Shown in pieces: positions 48,702-59,770 of a stretch of 64,000 nucleotides of DNA (the first letter of the stretch is position 1; each line of letters begins with the position of its first letter). The notes below the pieces were generated by a model that saw nothing but the letters and a program-made list of their open reading frames with translations, was not told where the DNA came from and ran no database searches. A program made the position numbers and the translations under genes. Location: positions 310,001 to 374,000 of the forward strand of contig NC_004545.1 of NCBI RefSeq assembly GCF_000007725.1. Direction: 5' to 3'. Source of the DNA: Buchnera aphidicola str. Bp (Baizongia pistaciae). Lineage in GTDB: Bacteria > Pseudomonadota > Gammaproteobacteria > Enterobacterales > Enterobacteriaceae.

Positions 48702-50261
48702 TTAATATTTATAAGATTTTAAATAAAAATGATTAAAACGCAGTCCTAAACAAAACAAAGTAAATAAATATCCACCTCCAGAACTTGCGCAAATATAAAA
48801 TAGACGCAAAATTTTAAAAAAAATGGAATGTGTATTAGCACTAAGTATTAAGTTTTTGTTTATAAATAATAGAATTAACATAACCATTGCTGCAGCAAAA
48901 ATCTTTAATAAAAATCTTAACCAATTTGTAGAGGGAATAAAAAACTCGCTTTGACATAATTTTCGATAAAGCAAAAAAAAATTTATCCAAGATGCTAAAC
49001 TAATAGCTAAAGCAAAACTAGTATATTGAAAATATTTTATAAAAAATATATTCATCAGCTGTGTTAAAACTAAAATAAAAATAGAAATCTTCATTGGAGT
49101 CTTAACATTTCTAATTGAATAAAATCCAGCTAGTAAAATTTTTATTAAAACAAACGGGAGTAAACCAATTGAATAAAATTCAATAACATTTTTAGTCATG
49201 ATTACATCATTGTAAGTAAACGCTCCATATTTAAACAATAAAGTAATTAGAGATTCAGATAATGTAAACAAAATTATAATACTAGGAATAACTAATATAC
49301 ATACTAATCTAAGTGCCCAATTTAACAATCTAGAATATTCTTTAATATTAATATTGTTTACACTTTTAGATAATAGAGGTAAAAGAATTGTACTCAATGA
49401 TACACCAAAAATTCCAGAAATAAATTCTACTAATCTATCTGAATAATAAATCCAAGATATAGATCCAGATATCAAAAAAGATGAACTAATTGTTGCAATT
49501 ATTATTGAAACTTGGTTTACAGACATTCCTAATGCTACTATTCCTATTTGTTTTAAAAATTTCAATACACCTAAATTTAAAATATTAAATTTAGGAAATA
49601 TTAACATGTTAATGTTCTTGAGATAAGGAAATTGATACAATATTTGAAAAACACCACCTACAATGACAGCCCAAGCTAGAGATAAAATTTTAGGATTGAA
49701 GTATGCAGTTACAAATGATATAAACATAATCATACTTAAATTTAAAAAAATAGAAGAATATGCTGGCACAGAAAAATAATTCCAAGCATTTAAAATAGAT
49801 CCAGTCAATGAACCTAAAGATACAAAAAAAATATATGGAAACATAATTTTTAACATTTTTGTAGCTAAATACAATTTTTCATGAGAATTTATAAATCCTG
49901 GAGCACATATTTTTACTATATCATTTGCAAAATATATTCCAAACGCTGTAAACAAACTGAGAATTATTATCATCAAACCTAAAATATTTGATATAAAATT
50001 TCTTGTAAGTTCAATGTTTTTATTATTTTTGTATTCTGATAAAATTGGAATAAAAACCTGGGAAAATGCGCCTTCGGCGAAAATACGACGAAATAAATTA
50101 GGTATTTTAAATGCTAAAAAAAAAGCATCTGTAATACCTGACGCTCCAAAACTGTAAGCAATCAATAAATCACGCATAAAACCTAATATTCTAGATATAA
50201 AAGTTATTAAACTTAAAGATATTAAAGATTTTAAAATATTCACAAAAACTACCTTTTTCAT
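48702..50261 (-). CDS. murJ: Lipid II flippase MurJ
   Basis: Polytopic inner-membrane protein that flips the peptidoglycan precursor lipid II. The 519-residue product (E. coli MurJ/MviN 511) has about 14 hydrophobic segments and the family start SRILGFMRDLLIAYSFGAS with FFLAFKIPNLFRRIFAEGAFSQ-type core near residues 45-66, including the functionally important arginines. It stands next to the flagellar genes as in E. coli. Retention with MepM and Pal shows that a peptidoglycan layer is still made. Confidence 0.95.
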   Translation of the reverse strand: MKKVVFVNILKSLISLSLITFISRILGFMRDLLIAYSFGASGITDAFFLAFKIPNLFRRIFAEGAFSQVFIPILSEYKNNKNIELTRNFISNILGLMIIILSLFTAFGIYFANDIVKICAPGFINSHEKLYLATKMLKIMFPYIFFVSLGSLTGSILNAWNYFSVPAYSSIFLNLSMIMFISFVTAYFNPKILSLAWAVIVGGVFQILYQFPYLKNINMLIFPKFNILNLGVLKFLKQIGIVALGMSVNQVSIIIATISSSFLISGSISWIYYSDRLVEFISGIFGVSLSTILLPLLSKSVNNINIKEYSRLLNWALRLVCILVIPSIIILFTLSESLITLLFKYGAFTYNDVIMTKNVIEFYSIGLLPFVLIKILLAGFYSIRNVKTPMKISIFILVLTQLMNIFFIKYFQYTSFALAISLASWINFFLLYRKLCQSEFFIPSTNWLRFLLKIFAAAMVMLILLFINKNLILSANTHSIFFKILRLFYICASSGGGYLFTLFCLGLRFNHFYLKSYKY

Positions 50262-51918
50262 AATTTTTAAACTATATATTAAAAACTAATTTATTTAGCG
50301 ACTTATTCAATACTACCTTATAATAAATTATGTTTGTTTTAAAACATTTAGATCATGTATATCCATACAATAAATAATCTGCAAAATTATTGTTTTAATA
50401 TTTAAAATTAGTTAATTAAAATTTACAAAAAAGAGTATTGATTGTTAAGTTTAAAAAAATACTTTTTAAAAATGTTATGAAAAATATCTAATTATTAATA
50501 CTCCTTCATTAATAAATATATAAACTAAAATGTCTTTTCAAATATTGTCGCTTTATTTAACCCAATTATAAATTATATCAAATGTTTTTAAATCTAAAAT
50601 ATGATTTATATTAGATTAGATTGTACAAGTTAAATTAACTAAAATACAATATTTCCAATATCACTTTTCTAAAAAACACAAAATTAATTTAATAATAGTT
50701 TAAGAACAATTTTTACTAAAAATTTTTGTTTGAAAACATAAATTTATCAGTAATATTCTAATTAACTCGCTATTTTAAAACAAAACAAAATTTTTAATAA
50801 CAATTTTTAAGGTTATAATATTTAAAATAATGAAATCTTTAAACTTTAATATATAATTTCGTATTTTTTTATAAAAATTAATTAAATTCAATTTTATGAA
50901 ATTGTTGTTAATTATTAAATAATAATTTTTAAAAAACAAATTCATAAATATTTTATCATAAAATAATTTAGTTAACTTTTAAAAACCATCTTTTTTATAT
51001 TTCTATTATGGAGCTAAAATTTATTAACATCAAATACCTAATAATTAATCAAAAATAATAATAGTTTAAAATTTGATCTTTAAAAAATGAAAAACCTAAT
51101 TTTATATTATTAAATATTTTAACGTTATTTTTAATATCTAATTCAATATTAATTTTTGAAATTTAAAAATAATACCGCTGTAAACATTTTTTATTCTTAC
51201 TATTTAAAATTAATATTACTATCAAATGTTTTTATTAACAAAGTTAATAAATCAAAAATGATAATATATATTTATTATATAGTATAAACTTCATAAAAAG
51301 TATCTGAAAACTTATTCTTAAATATTTAATTTAAAAAGTTATTAGAATTTTTAGATATACTTAAAAATACAATCTATTCCTTAAAATTTATGTTATAAAT
51401 TATAAACGTTAAAATTTATAAAAATTTCTTAAATTTTTGTTAATTAGTAATATTTAAATAAAATAACAAATATGCATAATTCAATAAACGAATTTTATAT
51501 TATATAAACAAATATGACTATAGACCAATGTTTAAATGAACTTTAAACATTACATGTTATTTTCAAAAAAAAAAAAAAAAAAACAAATTTATTAATCTAT
51601 AAACTTATTAATATTAATATTATTAATACAATTAAAATTAATACAGTAAAAATTTCAAAAAATTTATATATACATTGTTTGTACAATTAATTTTTACTGC
51701 TATAATAACTTGTTTTCGGAAATACTATCTTTAATAATACGGACTATAAAAATTTAAATAAACAAATCAAATAAAAATATATATCTTTTAAAATATGTTA
51801 AAAACGTTTTTTTATTTGATATTTAAATAGATTATTATATAATTAATGTACATGTATTATTAAAATTAATTTCCATTTAAAATTAAAATTTTAAAATATA
51901 AAAATTTGGAGTCAAAAT
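50262..51918. other. 1.66 kb gene-free spacer, murJ to flgB
   Basis: The longest gene-free stretch of the window. In E. coli this interval holds flgN, flgM and flgA. No remnant of any of them can be read, and all frames are broken by stops. It contains a run of 19 A at 51565-51583 and, at its right end, the flgB ribosome-binding site GGAG (51908-51911). The flgB promoter must lie here but no box is assignable. Confidence 0.6.
51565..51583. repeat. Poly-A tract of 19 bases
   Basis: An uninterrupted run of 19 A within the murJ-flgB spacer, by far the longest homopolymer I noticed here. It may be a slippage product in neutral DNA, and its exact length could vary between cells or be a sequencing artefact. 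Confidence 0.8.
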
Positions 51919-52329
51919 ATGTTAGATAAAATTAATAATGATTTTAATATCAATAAAATATTGTTAAATTTACATGCATATCGGCAAGAAATATTAGCAT
52001 CTAATATTGCTAATGCAAACACCCCAGGACACAAATCATCTGATATAAATTTTTCAAAAACATTTGGTAAATTATTCAGTAATGCGCTTCAGGGAAAAAA
52101 GAACAATTTAACTACTACGTCTAACAAACATATATCTAATAATGATAATGTAGAATTATCTAATTATGATGAACAAACAGTTAAAAATAATAGCTATGTA
52201 TCTAAAAACAATGCAATAAATATTGATGTTGACAGAATAAATTTTGTTCATAATGGGTTAAAATATAACGCTGACGTTGTATTTATTAATAATAAATTCA
52301 AAAATATTATGAATGTATTAAAAGGATAA
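51919..52329 (+). CDS. flgB: Flagellar proximal rod protein FlgB
   Basis: Proximal rod subunit of the flagellar basal body, exported by the flagellar type III system. The 136-residue product (E. coli 138) has the rod signature ASNIANANTPGHKSSDINF (about residues 32-50) and a C-terminal helix. GGAG precedes the ATG by a good distance. It is the first gene of the flg cluster and ends three bases before flgC. Confidence 0.96.
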   Translation: MLDKINNDFNINKILLNLHAYRQEILASNIANANTPGHKSSDINFSKTFGKLFSNALQGKKNNLTTTSNKHISNNDNVELSNYDEQTVKNNSYVSKNNAINIDVDRINFVHNGLKYNADVVFINNKFKNIMNVLKG

Positions 52330-52332
52330 AAT

Positions 52333-52743
52333 ATGTCTTTATTTAATATTTTTAACATTTCAGGATCAGCTTTAGAAACTCAATCTAAAAAAATGGATGT
52401 GCATGCAAAAAATTTAGCTAATTCAGATAGCTACATTTATAAAAATGGAACCCTTTATCCATATGTTGCAAGAATACCCATGTTACAATTTGATCCTATA
52501 TCAGAAAATAATGTTGGAGGAGTAAAAATGCATACAGTTGCTGGTGATACTTCTTCATTAAAATCAATATATAATCCTAATAGTCCTATTGCGGATTCAA
52601 ATGGATATTCAAAAGTATCAAACGTAGATATTATGTCTGAAACGATTAATGCTATTACAGCATCAAAAAATTATCAAACAAATTTGGAGATTTTAAATAC
52701 AACTAAGAATATGATTATGAAAACACTAACCATAGGACAATAA
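52333..52743 (+). CDS. flgC: Flagellar proximal rod protein FlgC
   Basis: Rod subunit that stacks with FlgB. The 136-residue product (E. coli 134) carries MSLFNIFNISGSALETQSKK at the start, the rod motif AKNLANSD, YPYVARIP and the C-terminal helix SKNYQTNLEILNTTKNM. The ribosome-binding site AAGGA lies within the end of flgB. In E. coli flgD and flgE follow; here there is only spacer. Confidence 0.96.
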   Translation: MSLFNIFNISGSALETQSKKMDVHAKNLANSDSYIYKNGTLYPYVARIPMLQFDPISENNVGGVKMHTVAGDTSSLKSIYNPNSPIADSNGYSKVSNVDIMSETINAITASKNYQTNLEILNTTKNMIMKTLTIGQ

Positions 52744-53478
52744 AATAAAAGTTTTTTATAATTACAATTATTACTATTTTTAAAATAATGATCTATTTTT
52801 AAAATAATTAGATCACAACAATAAATATAGAATAATATATACATTAATTATACAAAACATTAAATAATAACAAATTATCATCAAAACATTAACTACACGT
52901 TGTTATTGATGATAATCAAATAATTTATAAAAACCTCACCATATAATAGATGTGATAATAACTTTAATGTATTAACTACAACACAAAAATGTTACAATAT
53001 GCATTAATAATTAAAATCAAGCATATTTTTAAAATTACTAAAATAATTTATATAAAATAGAATATATCGTTTTATTTACATATTATTAAACATTTAATAA
53101 TTAAATATTTTATCGTTAAATATTTAATTATTAAATTTAACTTATGGAATTAATTCTAATATGCTTACAAAAATAAAATCAACACAAAAAACTAGAATTG
53201 TATTCTAAATTTTAAGTATGCATTAAATTATATGTTTTTAAATGAAATTCTAAATATAGAGAAACATGTCAAAATTATTAGCAAGTAAAGTGTAATTTTA
53301 GAATTTTTATAACATAAACGTTATTAATCAAAACAATAGCTGTTTAAATATAAAAATTTTTAATATTGATTAATTATACATGTTTTGAAGTACAAATTAA
53401 TCATATAATTTTGACACTAATAAATTAAAAATTTTTATGTTATTAAAAACTCAAAATAGTAGGAATAATATAATATTT
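52744..53478. other. Gap where flgD and flgE are expected
   Basis: These 735 bases lie between flgC and flgF. E. coli has flgD (hook cap) and flgE (hook), together about 1.9 kb. No frame longer than about 15 codons with a start can be read and no similarity to either is visible. A 10-bp inverted repeat (52875-52884 with 52916-52925) is present. Confidence 0.7.
52875..52925. repeat. Inverted repeat downstream of flgC
   Basis: TTATCATCAA (52875-52884) is the exact reverse complement of TTGATGATAA (52916-52925), with a 31-base loop. It lies about 130 bases after flgC and has no T-run. It could mark a new 3' end for the flgBC transcript after the loss of flgDE. Confidence 0.4.
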
Positions 53479-54225
53479 ATGGAATCAATAGTTAACGCAA
53501 TTATAACATCAACTAATAAAATATTCGAAAATCAAGCAAGAATAGCAAACAATATAACTAATATTTCAACACCAGGTTTTAAATCAGAATTAGAATTAAA
53601 AATTTTACTACCTTCACAAAAAGACCAAAATTCTCAAGAAGATAATTTTTTATATAAACAGTACAAAAACAAAAATCAAGGTACATTAAGACGTACTAAT
53701 CAACCCTTAGATTGTGCTATTATAGATAAAAATGATTGGTTTGTAATCAAGATAGATCCTAAAACAATTGCATACACTAAAAATGGCCATTTTAAAATTA
53801 ATTCTAATAGACAACTAACTGTCCAAAATCATCCAGTTTTAGGAGAAGATGGAGAGATTTTCATACCAAAAAATGAAAATATTGTTATCTCTTCTGATGG
53901 ATACATAAATATTATAAAAAATAATGTTCTACAACATAAAGTTGCACAATTTAAGTTAAAAAATTTTGATATTAATGACTTAACGTACAAAACGAACGGG
54001 TTATATTTATTAAACAAAAACAATAAACTCAACCATACTAATCATAAAAACGTTTCTAATATAAAATTAGTATCCGGAATACTAGAAGATAGCAATGTAA
54101 ATTTAGAAGAAAATATGGTTGAAATGATTTCTAATGCAAGAAAATTCGATATGCAAATAAAAATTTTATCTATGTATAACGAAAACACACAAGCAGCAAG
54201 TAGATTTTTAAATCTAAACTATTAA
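53479..54225 (+). CDS. flgF: Flagellar proximal rod protein FlgF
   Basis: Rod subunit between FlgB/FlgC and FlgG. I chose the ATG at 53479 (MESIVNAIITSTN), giving 248 residues (E. coli 251); an upstream ATG at 53437 adds 14 residues with no homologue. Motifs are NNITNISTPGFKSE (about residues 26-39), the central Dc-domain (NHPVLGEDGEIFIP) and the C-terminal ENMVEMISNARKFDMQIKIL. It is more divergent than FlgG but complete. The nearest Shine-Dalgarno-like AGGA is rather far upstream. Confidence 0.94.
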   Translation: MESIVNAIITSTNKIFENQARIANNITNISTPGFKSELELKILLPSQKDQNSQEDNFLYKQYKNKNQGTLRRTNQPLDCAIIDKNDWFVIKIDPKTIAYTKNGHFKINSNRQLTVQNHPVLGEDGEIFIPKNENIVISSDGYINIIKNNVLQHKVAQFKLKNFDINDLTYKTNGLYLLNKNNKLNHTNHKNVSNIKLVSGILEDSNVNLEENMVEMISNARKFDMQIKILSMYNENTQAASRFLNLNY

Positions 54226-54254
54226 CTGCTATCTCTAAATACTAAGGAGAAAAT

Positions 54255-55037
54255 ATGATTCCTGCATTATGGATTGCAAAAACAGGATTAGACGCCCAAC
54301 AAATAAATATGAACGTAATTGCTAATAATTTAGCTAATGTTAATACAAATGGATTTAAACGTTCCAAAGCAATATTTGAGGATTTAATTTATCACACTGT
54401 ACAACAACCTGGTTCAAAATCTTCTGAAGAAACTATATCACCTTCAGGATTTCAATTAGGAACTGGAGTTAGACCAATAACTACAGAGAGAGAACATAGT
54501 CAAGGAAATTTATCAAAAACAAATTCATTAAAAGATGTAGCAATAAACGGAAATGGTTTTTTTCAAGTACAATTACCTGATGGTAATGCTGCATATACAA
54601 GAGATGGATCATTTCAAATTAATCCAAATGGGCAACTAGTAACTAATAATGGATTTCTTATTCAACCAGTTATTAATTTTCCTGCAAACGGAAATAATAT
54701 GAGCGTAAGTCGAGATGGAATAATTACTGTTCGAATTCCAGAACAAACTCAACCTATTCGAGTCGGAAAATTATATTTAGCTAATTTTGTTAATGACTCA
54801 GGATTATCTAACATAGGAGAAAATTTATACCAAGAAACTGAAGCATCAGGAAATCCTTCTATTTCTTCGCCTGGTTCTCATGGTACAGGATTGTTATATC
54901 AAAGTTACGTAGAAACTTCTAATGTTAATATTGCTGAAGAATTAGTTAATATGATACAAGCACAACGTGCCTACGAAATAAATAGTAAAGTAATTACTAC
55001 TGCAGATCAAATGCTTCAAAAATTATCATTGTTATAA
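54255..55037 (+). CDS. flgG: Flagellar distal rod protein FlgG
   Basis: Distal rod subunit. Its 260 residues equal E. coli FlgG, and it is the best conserved flg product here: [16 protein letters not shown] at the start, [50 protein letters not shown], and [17 protein letters not shown] at the C-terminus. AAGGAG is well placed before the ATG. In a complete flagellum the hook (FlgE) would polymerise on it; that gene is missing here. Confidence 0.97.
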
Positions 55038-55106
55038 CTACCAATAAAAACATTGTATTCAAAAAAGTTATTAACATATAATTTTAATTACTTAAGTTTT
55101 CATTTT

Positions 55107-55841
55107 ATGGTGATTACGTTGCTTAATTTAAATAAAAAACATTACTTATTAATTTTATTTTTTATATTATTAAATGGTTGCTCAATTGATAAGAATATCA
55201 TTCTAAATAAAAAACAGAAACAACACAAAATTTTTAATTTACCTATAACACATACTTCTAAAGAAACTCATAATTTTAATTATCAAGATAACAAACAGTC
55301 CAATAATAATTACCTTGAACCATTATTTGAAGATTACAAACCAAGAAATGTTGGAGATATACTTACCATTATACTACAAGAAAATACAAGCGCTAGCAAC
55401 AGTGTCTCTAATAATTCTATACATAATGGAAATTCAAATTTTGATATAGATATAGGTAATGCAAGAGCATTTGATGACCCAAATGGTATTCTCAATAAAA
55501 TAGAACTAAACTCGTCTATTAAAAATAATTTCTTAGGTAAAGGTAGTTCTTCTGCAAACAACACATTTGTTGGATTAATTACAGTTATAGTAGATAGAAT
55601 ATTACCTAATGGAAATTTAGAAGTATCAGGAAGTAAAAATATTACAATTAATGATGGTATAGAAAAAATTTGTTTTTATGGTATAGTAAATCCTCATACT
55701 ATTTCTAAAAATAATTCTGTATTATCAACAAAAGTTGCTAACACAAATATTACATATATTAGTAGTGGGCCTATTAATATTGGTAGTAAAATAAATTGGT
55801 TACAGCGTTTATTTGTAAGTTTATTTACTTTATCTAAATAA
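55107..55841 (+). CDS. flgH: Flagellar L-ring lipoprotein FlgH
   Basis: Forms the outer-membrane L-ring bushing around the rod. From the ATG at 55107 the product has 244 residues (E. coli 232) with a lipoprotein signal ending LLNGC (lipidated C25). A TTG at 55053 also opens the frame but would place 18 residues before the signal peptide. Conserved are PLFEDYKPRNVGDILTIILQEN (about residues 78-97 for its core), NTFVGLITVIVD and LPNGNLEVSGSKNI. It implies an outer membrane that still receives lipoproteins. Confidence 0.95.
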   Translation: MVITLLNLNKKHYLLILFFILLNGCSIDKNIILNKKQKQHKIFNLPITHTSKETHNFNYQDNKQSNNNYLEPLFEDYKPRNVGDILTIILQENTSASNSVSNNSIHNGNSNFDIDIGNARAFDDPNGILNKIELNSSIKNNFLGKGSSSANNTFVGLITVIVDRILPNGNLEVSGSKNITINDGIEKICFYGIVNPHTISKNNSVLSTKVANTNITYISSGPINIGSKINWLQRLFVSLFTLSK

Positions 55842-55945
55842 TTCAAAAAAAGAACAATATAAATATATTAATCAAGTTTTTATAAAACAGTTTATACAAT
55901 TTCATTAAAAACTTAGTCATAAAAATTCAATTAATAGGAAATTTT

Positions 55946-57073
55946 ATGTTTAATCAGTCATTCTTAAAGTATATGCTGTTTGGTTTTTTTTTATTTAGTT
56001 TTCATGCACATGCTGATAGAATTCGAGATTTAATAACTATCCAAGGTATTCGATATAATCAACTAATAGGGTATGGATTAGTTGTTGGACTTGATGGAAC
56101 AGGAGATCGTACAAATCAAATATCTTACACAACTCACGCATTAAAAAATATGCTATTTCAGTTAGGGATTACATTTCCTAACGAGCAAAACGCAAAATTT
56201 AAAAATATTGCTGCTGTTATGGTAACTACGAAATTCCCAAATTTTACTCATATTGGACAACAAGTAGATGTTATAGTGTCTTCTGTAGGTGATGCCACAA
56301 GTTTACAGGGAGGGACCTTACTTATGACTCCACTCAGGGGAACTGATAATAAAATATATGCTGTAGCACAAGGTAATATCATAATTAATGACAAAAACTC
56401 TGTTGAACGATTCAAAAATATTTTAGTTAATAATCATTTAAACAATGGAATGATTATCAACGGAGCAACAATAGAAAGAGAAATGCATACTGATTTTGGA
56501 AAAAATGAAACTTTAAATTTACAATTAAACAATGAAGATTTTACTGTAGCACAGGAAATTAGTAAAAAAATTAATATGCAGTATCCTAAATCAGCTGTTG
56601 CTTTAAATTCTAAAATAATTCAAGTTTGCATACCTAACAATAATATTGAACAAGTAGAAATGTTAGCAACTATTCAAAATATAAACATACCAATTCCTAT
56701 TCAAGATGCAAAAATATTAATTAATGCTAAAACAGGAAATATTATTACCAATCAAACAATAAATATTAACACATGTGCTATTACTCATAAAAATATTTCA
56801 ATGACTATTGCGTTTAATAAACTAAAAATAAATCGACTTGTACCAAATCCTATAATAAAAAGCGATAAAAATAATAATAAAACTCTAAATGACGAACAAA
56901 TCTATAAAAATAATTATAATACAAATAACTTTCAATATTTAGAAAAAACTTCTAATCTTAACACTATTATTTGTGCATTAAATCTTTTTGATATTACAAC
57001 AACAGAATTAATATCAATATTGCAATCTATGCATGATGCTGGTTGTTTTCATGCTAAATTAGAGATTACATAA
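55946..57073 (+). CDS. flgI: Flagellar P-ring protein FlgI
   Basis: Periplasmic P-ring subunit that surrounds the rod in the peptidoglycan layer. The 375-residue product (E. coli 365) has a cleavable signal peptide (about residues 1-23, ending AHA) followed by DRIRDLITIQGIRYNQLIGYGL and GLDGTGDR. AGGAAA precedes the ATG. Its usual periplasmic chaperone FlgA is absent from the expected site upstream of flgB. A somewhat lysine- and asparagine-rich insertion (about residues 300-330) explains the greater length. Confidence 0.96.
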   Translation: MFNQSFLKYMLFGFFLFSFHAHADRIRDLITIQGIRYNQLIGYGLVVGLDGTGDRTNQISYTTHALKNMLFQLGITFPNEQNAKFKNIAAVMVTTKFPNFTHIGQQVDVIVSSVGDATSLQGGTLLMTPLRGTDNKIYAVAQGNIIINDKNSVERFKNILVNNHLNNGMIINGATIEREMHTDFGKNETLNLQLNNEDFTVAQEISKKINMQYPKSAVALNSKIIQVCIPNNNIEQVEMLATIQNINIPIPIQDAKILINAKTGNIITNQTININTCAITHKNISMTIAFNKLKINRLVPNPIIKSDKNNNKTLNDEQIYKNNYNTNNFQYLEKTSNLNTIICALNLFDITTTELISILQSMHDAGCFHAKLEIT

Positions 57074-57076
57074 ATC

Positions 57077-57529
57077 ATGAGCACTAACTTTTTTACATAT
57101 CTCCTTAATAATACAAAAATAAACAGTGAAAAAAAATATAATCGGTTAATTCAAAACAAGAATAACCAAAAACATAGCATACATAAAAGCTCGAATATTT
57201 CACAACAAGTAGAAAGTTTATTTCTTTACATCATGTTTACAAACATGAAAAAAAGTAGTTATAAAAATGAATTTTGGACAACTAGCAATTCAGAATCTAT
57301 ATATCAAAATATGTATGATCAATTTATCACTCAGACATACGATAAAAAGGGTATAGGACTAGCTAAAATTATTGATAATCAAATACAGAAATATAAGAAT
57401 CAAAAACATTTAACAAACTTAGAAATATTTGATAAATTTTCAAATAAATTAATCTCTTTTAAAACAAATAATACTACTGATGATATTGATACTATTATCA
57501 AAACATCAAAACTATTTCGCTATCTGTGA
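57077..57529 (+). CDS. flgJ: Rod-capping protein FlgJ, rod domain only
   Basis: In E. coli FlgJ (313 residues) is a rod cap joined to a C-terminal muramidase that opens the wall for the rod. This product has 150 residues and aligns only to the rod-cap half: ISQQVESLFLYIMFTNMKKS (about residues 41-60) and MYDQFITQTYDKKGIGLAKII (shortened core about 94-112). No muramidase domain follows in any frame. The start ATG lies three bases after flgI. From memory other Buchnera also have a short FlgJ, so the loss is probably old. Confidence 0.9.
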   Translation: MSTNFFTYLLNNTKINSEKKYNRLIQNKNNQKHSIHKSSNISQQVESLFLYIMFTNMKKSSYKNEFWTTSNSESIYQNMYDQFITQTYDKKGIGLAKIIDNQIQKYKNQKHLTNLEIFDKFSNKLISFKTNNTTDDIDTIIKTSKLFRYL

Positions 57530-58537
57530 TAAATGTTAACAAAAAATATTCTATTACCAATGTATACAATTTTAAACTATTATTTTATAAATATTTAATA
57601 ATCTTATAAATTATAATATTAATTAACTTATAATTATTTATAAAAATATTAATCATTATATTGTTAATTTTCAAAAAGGTGAACGTTATTTTTAAAAAAG
57701 CCAACACATAATTTCCCATAGCTAAATAAAAATTTCGTTATGGGAAATTTAGTTTAATATTAATTAAATAATTATATATATTAATAACATATAAAAATTT
57801 AACTTATAACAACAAGTGTAACTTTAAAAAATACTAACAGACATTAATAATAAGTTTTTAACTAAAACAGCTTAAATTATTAATTGTTCATATTACTTAC
57901 TAAAGAATTAATGGTTTTCGTTTACAACAATAAATTAATATTTTTAAAAATTAGTTATGAATACAAATTATTAATTTTTTTTAACTTAAATTTTAAAAAT
58001 ATAAAATCACTTCTTAAATATCAAAAAATTATAAAAATATAATTATTTTTTATAATTTGTAAATTTTAATATAAAAATTCTTATAAATAAATGATCTAAA
58101 TTAAAATATTATTATATATATAAATATTTAATCTATGCATTAAAGTATAATATAAAAAACAAATAATTTTAACATTAAATATAAATTATATATCTAAAAT
58201 ATATTTACTTTTAACAACATATAATAAAATTTGTTTAAATTATTACCAAAATATAACATTTACACACATAATTATTTTGTTTTTTTTTTAAATATCACTT
58301 TTGCATATATTCAAAAATAATATAACTAGAAATTTTTATAATGTTATTTTAATGATATTAATAGTTTTTAAAACATTTTGGAATTTATTAATAAAACTCT
58401 CATATTTGCTATTTATTTATATATTAAACACCAAATAATTTCTAAAAATTTAATATTATAAAATTACGTGTAATACCGCATGTTTTATATGTAGTGAATT
58501 TTAAGATAGATAAAATAATGCATTTTTTCTAGTAGTT
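57530..58537. other. Gap where flgK and flgL are expected
   Basis: About 1 kb between convergent flgJ and rne. E. coli has flgK and flgL (hook-filament junction) here. No gene-like ORF can be read. It contains a terminator-like hairpin (57710-57750) and, at the right end, a short out-of-frame stretch that looks like the lost continuation of rne (58501-58554). Confidence 0.65.
57710..57755 (+). terminator. Terminator-like hairpin after flgJ
   Basis: AATTTCCCATAGC (57710-57722) pairs with GTTATGGGAAATT (57737-57749) with one mismatch and a 14-base loop, followed by TAGTTTAAT. It lies 180 bases after the flgJ stop and probably ends the flg transcript. The T-tail is modest. Confidence 0.5.
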
Positions 58538-58554
58538 CTAACACTTTTGCATTT
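58501..58554 (-). pseudogene. rne: Out-of-frame remnant of the rne zinc-link region
   Basis: Directly downstream of, and partly overlapping, the end of rne, another minus-strand frame reads KCKSVRTTRKNALFYLS before a stop. It resembles the E. coli stretch that follows the zinc-link (CSGTGTVRDNESLSLS): the cysteine, a T-x-R-x-N pattern and the final serine line up. This suggests a frameshift cut rne here and the rest has since eroded. The match is short and the reading is tentative. Confidence 0.35.
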
Positions 58555-59770
58555 CAAATAAATAATTATGATTTATTTTTTTTAGCGGCGAACCTAAACA
58601 TTGTCTAGACATTTCTAATAAACCAAATTGTGATATAGATCCTACTTGAACTCGTGCACGATCTTTTTGGAGAACTTGATGCAAATGTAATTCAATCATC
58701 TTCTGATGTTTTAATACACTCATATCTATAAAATCTATAACAATTAAACCTCCTAAGTCACGTAATCTAAGTTGACGAGCAATTTCTCTAACAGCTTCAT
58801 AATTAGTATTAAAAGCTGTTTCTTCTATATTTACACCTTTAGTCGATTGAGAAGAGTTAATATCAATAGCTGTTAATGCCTCTGTGTAATCAATTATAAT
58901 AGAACCTCCGGATGGTAATTTTACAATCCTACGTAACAAAGCATTAATTTGAGATTCTATTTTGTAATAACTAAACAAAGGATCACTACCAGTATACAAT
59001 TTTATTTTTTTTTCAAAATACGAGCAATTCATATTAAACATATAGTCTCGTGCTAGTTCTAATATTTCAGGATTATCAACAATAATTTCTTGAATATCTT
59101 TTTTTAAATAATCCCTTAATGTACGAATAACAATGTTACTTTCTTTATGAATTAAACAAGGAGCTGTATTAATTTCAGCAGATTTTTTAATTGTGTACCA
59201 ATTTTTCACGCGAAAATTTAAATCTAATTGTAAAGTTTCAATTGATCTTCCCACACCAGAAGTACGAATAATTATTCCCATGTTTTCAGGGACCATTAAC
59301 ATAGATATTATTTTTTTTAAATGAAATCTATCGATACCTTCTATTTTTCTTGAAATTCCTTCAAGATGGGGACAATTAGGCATCAAAACTAAATAGTTAC
59401 CAGCCAAACTAATGAATGTTGTTAATAAAGCACCTTTTGTACCCCGTTCCTCTTTGTCTATCTGAACAATACATTCTTGACCTTCTTTTAAAATATTTTT
59501 AATATGAAGATGTCTATAATTTGAACAATTATTTGGAAAATAATTTCTAGAAATTTCTTTTAATGGCAAGAATCCATTCTTTTTTTCACCGTAATCAACA
59601 AACGCAGCTTCTAAACTTGGTTCTATCCTTACAATTTTTCCTTTGTAAATGTTTGATTTCCTTTGTTTTTTATCTATATTTTCTACGTTTAAATCATATA
59701 GTTGCTGCCCATCAATAAGAGCAATGCGGAGTTTTTTTATTTCTATTGCATTAATTAACATTCTTCTCAT
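58538..59770 (-). CDS. rne: Ribonuclease E, truncated to the catalytic core
   Basis: Endoribonuclease for mRNA decay and rRNA/tRNA processing. E. coli RNase E has 1061 residues with a catalytic half of about 529. This product has 410 and stops at the point of the zinc-link CPRC, reading NYLFEMQKC instead. Present are the RNase H-like start, the S1 domain (NIYKGKIVRIEPSLEAAFVD, about residues 39-58), the 5' sensor, and the DNase I-like site with the metal ligands in TAIDINS (about 303) and VIDFIDMS (about 346). Missing are the full zinc-link pair, the small domain and the degradosome scaffold, so tetramer formation is doubtful. Confidence 0.93.
   Translation of the reverse strand: MRRMLINAIEIKKLRIALIDGQQLYDLNVENIDKKQRKSNIYKGKIVRIEPSLEAAFVDYGEKKNGFLPLKEISRNYFPNNCSNYRHLHIKNILKEGQECIVQIDKEERGTKGALLTTFISLAGNYLVLMPNCPHLEGISRKIEGIDRFHLKKIISMLMVPENMGIIIRTSGVGRSIETLQLDLNFRVKNWYTIKKSAEINTAPCLIHKESNIVIRTLRDYLKKDIQEIIVDNPEILELARDYMFNMNCSYFEKKIKLYTGSDPLFSYYKIESQINALLRRIVKLPSGGSIIIDYTEALTAIDINSSQSTKGVNIEETAFNTNYEAVREIARQLRLRDLGGLIVIDFIDMSVLKHQKMIELHLHQVLQKDRARVQVGSISQFGLLEMSRQCLGSPLKKINHNYLFEMQKC

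Follow-up and report, generated by a model that had tools for sequence, protein, structure and literature searches.

A hookless flagellar operon in Buchnera aphidicola of Baizongia pistaciae and loss of the hook genes across the genus

The flg operon of Buchnera aphidicola str. Bp (Baizongia pistaciae; hereafter BBp) was analysed in a window of 64,000 nucleotides (NC_004545.1, positions 310001–374000). The operon encodes the rod and ring proteins of the flagellar basal body and lacks the genes of the hook. The loss of the hook genes is genus-wide, and the remaining rod and ring genes are under purifying selection. From the gene content, we consider it rather probable that selection maintains in these bacteria a truncated basal body terminating at the distal rod, which may serve as a conduit for flagellar type III export. 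Here a hook deletion of natural origin has persisted throughout a symbiont genus, and it separates the parts kept by selection (rod, rings and export gate) from the parts needed for motility (hook and filament). The question of what the Buchnera basal body does is narrowed: its function cannot require a hook, and in the genus studied it would have to do without outer membrane proteins inserted by the beta-barrel assembly machinery (BAM).

The core finding is known. According to Charles et al. (2011; PMC3246468), the flagellar set of BBp consists of flgBCF-J, fliE-K, fliM-R and flhAB. Schepers et al. (2021; PMC8109811) describe flgD, flgE and flgK as 'frequently shed' across Buchnera, with the rod and gate genes retained. 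Thus, both the hookless gene set of BBp and the frequent shedding of hook genes are already published. A first-pass annotation, made from the letters of the window alone, had regarded the loss of the hook genes as a further step of reduction; the step is real but not new, as the BBp gene list is in print (PMC3246468). What is added here beyond Charles et al. (2011) is the genus-wide absence, the spacers with their missing remnants, the ratios of non-synonymous to synonymous substitution rates (dN/dS), the decay of fliK and the envelope genes across the genus. No title reporting genus-wide hook loss or fliK decay was found in a literature search that covered mostly papers outside subscription.

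Absence of the hook genes

The positions of flg features are those of the window; G000 denotes the BBp genome and G008 its nearest relative. The seven open reading frames (ORFs) run in the order flgB, flgC, spacer, flgF, flgG, flgH, flgI, short flgJ, as the annotation had read them, and all seven matched their Pfam families and the E. coli K-12 proteins. The flgC–flgF spacer (52744–53436; 14.9% G+C) occupies the position of flgD and flgE in hook-bearing relatives. It has 693 bp to the first ATG of the flgF frame and 736 bp to the next ATG at 53480, the latter in agreement with the 735 bases given before, and no frame of 50 or more residues lies wholly within it, as had been noted. In the ten genus genomes with a resolved locus the spacers have 169–799 bp, far below the 1970, 2024 and 2153 bp in three genomes with flgD and flgE; the gap is indeed too small for both genes. 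Likewise, the stretch from flgJ to rne in the window yielded neither flgK nor flgL, both described before as missing after flgJ.

A hook gene elsewhere in the BBp genome, for which the annotation had proposed a search, was ruled out by three models. PF00460, common to rod and hook proteins, matched only four proteins, FlgB, FlgC, FlgF and FlgG. FlgD (PF03963) had no match genome-wide, and no full-length FlgE was found genome-wide with a FlgE model built from the genomes G082, G110 and G129 and from E. coli. The custom model was used because PF00460 was too insensitive: it found FlgE in G082 and G110 and missed it in G129. Run on 17 genomes, the FlgE model gave full-length matches only in its three endosymbiont members, partial matches in rod protein frames in 12 other genomes, and none in G001 and G020. 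FlgK was not found in the BBp genome by a search of the flg locus and, indirectly, by PF00460. Among the filament and motor genes, the genome-wide search covered the N-terminal domain of flagellin and FlgL (PF00669), which had no match in BBp and was present in one of the 17 genomes (G110). The hook protein FlgE and the hook cap FlgD, which mark a complete flagellum or hook-basal body, are both missing.

Remnants of flgD, flgE and flgK were searched for in the ten hookless spacers, and none was found. The best printed matches had E-values of 1.7 (FlgK model) and 5.7 (FlgE model), and shuffles of all tested stretches in two-base blocks reached 0.06 and 0.56, respectively. With the FlgD model, no hookless spacer was among the best 14 matches listed (the 14th at E 1.8). 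Pseudogene remnants of the three genes in the spacers were rejected.

Distribution across the genus

The genus sample consists of 11 genomes (G000–G010), and the flg locus is resolved in ten. In G001, a gap of 100 N lies 324 bases after flgC; this genome was set aside for flgF–flgJ, and a loss of flgF–flgJ there was withdrawn. All ten resolved loci contain flgB, flgC, flgF, flgG, flgH, flgI and flgJ, and none contains flgD, flgE, flgK or flgL. Neither FlgD nor FlgE was detected in any of the 11 genomes. The same PF03963 model finds FlgD in 92 of 149 family genomes, and FlgD was found in five genomes of 0.5–0.7 Mb outside the genus (G040, G082, G100, G110 and G129). In the flg loci, to which this search was confined, flgK is present in G082, G110 and G129 and in no genus member.

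A tree of the six concatenated rod and ring proteins grouped the ten genus members with full support (G001 excluded). The relations of the genus to G040, G100, G129 and G082 were not resolved, and the approximately unbiased test did not reject a grouping of G040 and G100 with the genus, under which one flgE loss could suffice (p 0.064). The number of flgE losses is thus not settled by the flg tree. G040 and G100 have an open flgD frame (L137:3217-3867 and L139:3403-4080), and flgE was undetected in both; their flgC–flgF distances are 1758 and 1019 bp. Here the hook cap gene outlives the hook gene.

Selection on the rod and ring genes

The annotation had proposed computing dN/dS for flgB, flgC, flgF, flgG, flgH and flgI. 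The six genes were pooled in five genome pairs, using Nei–Gojobori-type counts with the Jukes–Cantor correction. The pooled values are 0.131 for G004/G007 (95% interval 0.098–0.171), 0.215 for G003/G006, 0.218 for G009/G010, 0.244 for G005/G007 and 0.324 for the pair of BBp and its nearest relative, G000/G008 (0.277–0.377). All are well below 1, as expected for genes under purifying selection. Neither of the two observations named in the annotation as refuting, values near 1 in these genes or an intact flgE or flgD elsewhere in the genome, was made. The BBp lineage is informed only by the G000/G008 figure, because comparisons with the other genomes are near saturation at silent sites (median proportion of silent differences 0.44–0.56 by gene), and this estimate is rough because dS is 0.81. 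The neighbouring genes rne, rluC and murJ gave similar values of 0.10–0.44 in the same pairs where they were long enough.

FlgG is the slowest flg protein in the five pairs (dN/dS 0–0.18; the ranking has one tie-free check only). The maximum for FlgF is 0.49, in one pair, and FlgJ has values from 0.16 to 0.86, the highest of them based on 60 codons only. The frames of flgB, flgC, flgF, flgG, flgH and flgI are of similar, full length in all ten resolved genomes, and none is shortened. The median identity of FlgG to E. coli is 65–73% in the ten hookless genomes and 68.5 and 64.2% in hook-bearing ones. Compared with G082, the hookless genomes have slightly lower identities for FlgB and FlgF. These comparisons give no clear indication that constraint on the rod and rings was relaxed once the hook was lost, and no sign of a new role.

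Export gate and FliK

The BBp genome retains fliE, fliF, fliG, fliH, fliI, fliJ, fliK, fliM, fliN, a joined fliO-fliP, fliQ, fliR, flhB and flhA; flhA, flhB, fliI and fliK were among the genes named for a search in the annotation, and the fliC named with them has no counterpart in the flagellin N-domain search. The parts of a reduced basal body are all present: the rod (FlgB, FlgC, FlgF and FlgG), the rings (FlgI and FlgH), the MS ring (FliF) and the export gate (FlhA, FlhB, FliP, FliQ and FliR), with no flagellin by PF00669. In the genus, FlhA (a partial match in G004), FliF and the frames of FliI, FliP, FliQ and FliR were found in 11 of 11 genomes. In BBp, fliO and fliP form one frame of 360 residues (L142:9037-10119; C1:83536-84618) that matches PF04347 and PF00813. 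Of the ten other genus members, eight, G008 among them, have the two genes in separate frames, and fliO was undetected in G004 and G007.

The hook ruler FliK is encoded by a frame of more than 200 residues in nine of the 11 genus genomes. PF02120 was matched by all nine frames (eight with E-values of at most 0.0034, G003 with 0.088), of which three are above the curated cut-off. In G004 and G007, only decayed traces of fliK are located between fliJ and fliM (L146:6241-7338 and L149:6315-7420). In six hookless pairs, the dN/dS of FliK is 0.56–1.2; five intervals include 1, and one is below it (0.38–0.80). This decay is consistent with a ruler that has nothing to measure. It is not proof of a link to the hook, because FliK also evolves faster than FliI in E. 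coli (dN/dS 0.29–0.37 versus 0–0.02 in three comparisons) and because the FliK frame looks split or short in the hook-bearing G082 and G129. FliK as proof of hook-linked decay is weakened by these points and by the one interval below 1.

Envelope

The FlgH lipobox cysteine is aligned in all ten resolved genomes, as are both FlgI cysteines with E. coli Cys273 and Cys357, and LspA is present in 11 of 11 genus genomes. Omp85/BamA had no match in any of the 11 genus genomes or in G040, and it is present in five other relatives. Charles et al. (2011; PMC3246468) report for BBp the same flagellar genes and the same lack of Bam proteins, and the absence in 11 genomes extends this report to the genus.

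Mur ligase domains gave five or six matches in each genus genome. BBp has five with open frames; the frame near 177 kb is probably FolC, which would leave four open Mur ligases. One ligase looks split, with internal stops, in six of the 11 genomes (G001, G002, G003, G006, G009 and G010), and in some genus members wall synthesis may thus be breaking down. A published survey describes the loss of nearly all wall genes in Eriosomatinae Buchnera, unlike the genus here (PMC9116674). Hook-bearing G082 is the opposite of the genus, with Omp85 kept and no Mur ligase match; G129 keeps Omp85 and has a single weak Mur-ligase-domain match.

Possible function of the truncated basal body

This Buchnera clade has lost the hook (flgD, flgE and flgK), in addition to the filament and motor as published for Buchnera generally. 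The remaining parts could build the MS ring, C ring, export gate, rod, P ring and L ring. As no hook protein is available, the structure would be expected to grow no further than FlgG, the distal rod. When the L ring forms in Salmonella, FlgD replaces the FlgJ rod cap. With FlgD absent, the rod end would be uncapped, and the rod would be an open conduit supplied by the flagellar type III gate. The annotation had suggested that a basal body without hook or filament suits an export channel or a surface complex. In part this stands: the purifying selection and the retained flhA, flhB, fliE-K and fliM-R are compatible with an export channel, and the assembly, the open rod end and export as the selected function are what we infer from them.

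A 2006 study by Maezawa and co-workers is reportedly the source for basal bodies on the Buchnera of the pea aphid. Like the genus here, this Buchnera is without filament and motor genes and keeps the rod, the rings and the type III gate, but it differs in keeping flgD, flgE and flgK, a partial hook (PMC8109811). Export has been proposed in print for Buchnera basal bodies (PMC3246468, PMC8109811); Charles et al. (2011; PMC3246468) cite Toft and Fares (2008) for a specialization in export and state that export function in Buchnera is not yet demonstrated, and Schepers et al. (2021; PMC8109811) suggest that the role may be export or recognition. A non-flagellar injectisome would have a secretin outer ring and a needle; the window encodes the flagellar ring proteins FlgH and FlgI.

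Several observations weigh against a basal body kept for export. No export substrate is known. The identities of rod and ring proteins to E. coli are about equal in hookless and hook-bearing relatives, so that nothing marks a new function. Fast evolution is seen in FlgJ, FliJ, FliM and FliK, the start region is missing from the flgJ frame of G004, and flgA was not detected in two of the 11 genus genomes (G000 and G008); these features indicate that some decay is ongoing. Omp85/BamA is missing throughout the genus, and BBp has been proposed to be without an outer membrane (Charles et al., 2011; PMC3246468), in which case the L ring would be without its usual seat.

A more daring form of the export proposal turns this envelope to account. 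Throughout the genus, selection would have maintained the open-ended basal body since the common ancestor of the clade. The envelope around it would lack BAM and might also be devoid of a normal outer membrane, so that the L-ring lipoprotein and the distal rod would lead straight into the space beneath the host membrane. Such a structure would be a minimal flagellar secretion machine of natural origin. We regard this form as doubtful.

It is possible, though unlikely, that the operon is in slow one-way decay, in which the hook, useless without a filament, went first and the rod and ring genes are now leaving without a present function. The traces of fliK in G004 and G007 and its high dN/dS in the other pairs, the undetected flgA and the short flgJ frame of G004 agree with such decay. 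So do the small relative G020, in which FlhA is kept and PF00460 has no match, and the Buchnera of Stegophylla, which lost the whole flagellar set (PMC8109811). The pooled rod and ring dN/dS of 0.13–0.32 (no upper 95% limit exceeds 0.377), which is similar to that of the neighbouring genes, argues against it, as does the lack of any shortened rod or ring frame in the ten resolved genomes.

Alternatively, the rod and rings may be displayed and recognized by the host during transfer to embryos, with export serving self-assembly only. Surface recognition has been proposed for Buchnera basal bodies generally (PMC8109811), and no flg protein is more conserved than FlgG, which would form the exposed tip. 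However, FlgG shows high conservation in all relatives compared (64–73% identity to E. coli across 14 genomes), so that the constraint is not specific to hookless clades, and exposure is uncertain if the outer membrane is lost. We consider this role improbable. An artefact of annotation or assembly, with the hook genes elsewhere or lost in assembly, is close to refuted, as nothing in BBp favours it (only G001 has its gap shortly past flgC), ten further genomes have the same absence, the published gene list agrees (PMC3246468), and the BBp assembly (a 615,980-bp chromosome within 618,379 bp in total) is given as 99.96% complete.

Organization of the flg locus

All seven genes are on the plus strand, with frames and motifs intact as had been stated. 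The proximal rod proteins are encoded by flgB (51919–52329, 136 residues; PF00460 and a tblastn match with E. coli K-12) and flgC (52333–52743, 136 residues; PF06429, PF00460 and an E. coli K-12 match). The rod gene flgF (53437–54225) has 262 residues from the first ATG and was identified by PF06429, PF22692 and tblastn with E. coli K-12 FlgF, the PF00460 match alone being below the cut-off. It is followed by the distal rod gene flgG (54255–55037, 260 residues; Pfam and E. coli K-12 matches). The L-ring lipoprotein gene flgH (55053–55841; PF02107) has a frame from TTG and keeps the lipobox LNGC, and the P-ring gene flgI (55946–57073, 375 residues; PF02119) keeps the two cysteines aligned with those of E. 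coli.

The short flgJ (57077–57529, 150 residues; PF10135) contains only the rod-binding domain, without the muramidase domain; a wall-cutting domain is known to be absent from Buchnera FlgJ proteins (PMC9116674). FlgJ has about 150 residues in BBp and in G008 (L134:7315-7776), and 85–128 residues from stop to stop in eight others. The extra tail in BBp matched no Pfam family.

The order flgB-C-(D-E)-F-G-H-I-J between murJ and rne is that of the E. coli K-12 operon, and so are the flanking genes: murJ, on the minus strand, precedes flgB, and rne and rluC follow flgJ. In contrast to E. coli K-12, flgD, flgE, flgK, flgL, flgA, flgN and flgM are undetected in the BBp flg locus, and FlgJ is without its muramidase half; the absence of flgA, flgN and flgM had gone unmentioned in the annotation. 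The murJ–flgB spacer (50262–51918, 1657 bp), where flgA stands in nine of the 11 genus members, contains no convincing remnant; nothing better than E 0.4 was obtained for flgA or pyrC. A structured RNA in the region 50200–58600 was rejected, as the Rfam scan gave no match up to E 0.1. The window rne has only 410 residues, spanning the N-terminal part, and in G008 rne (L134:7815-9052) consists of two frames, possibly by a frameshift.

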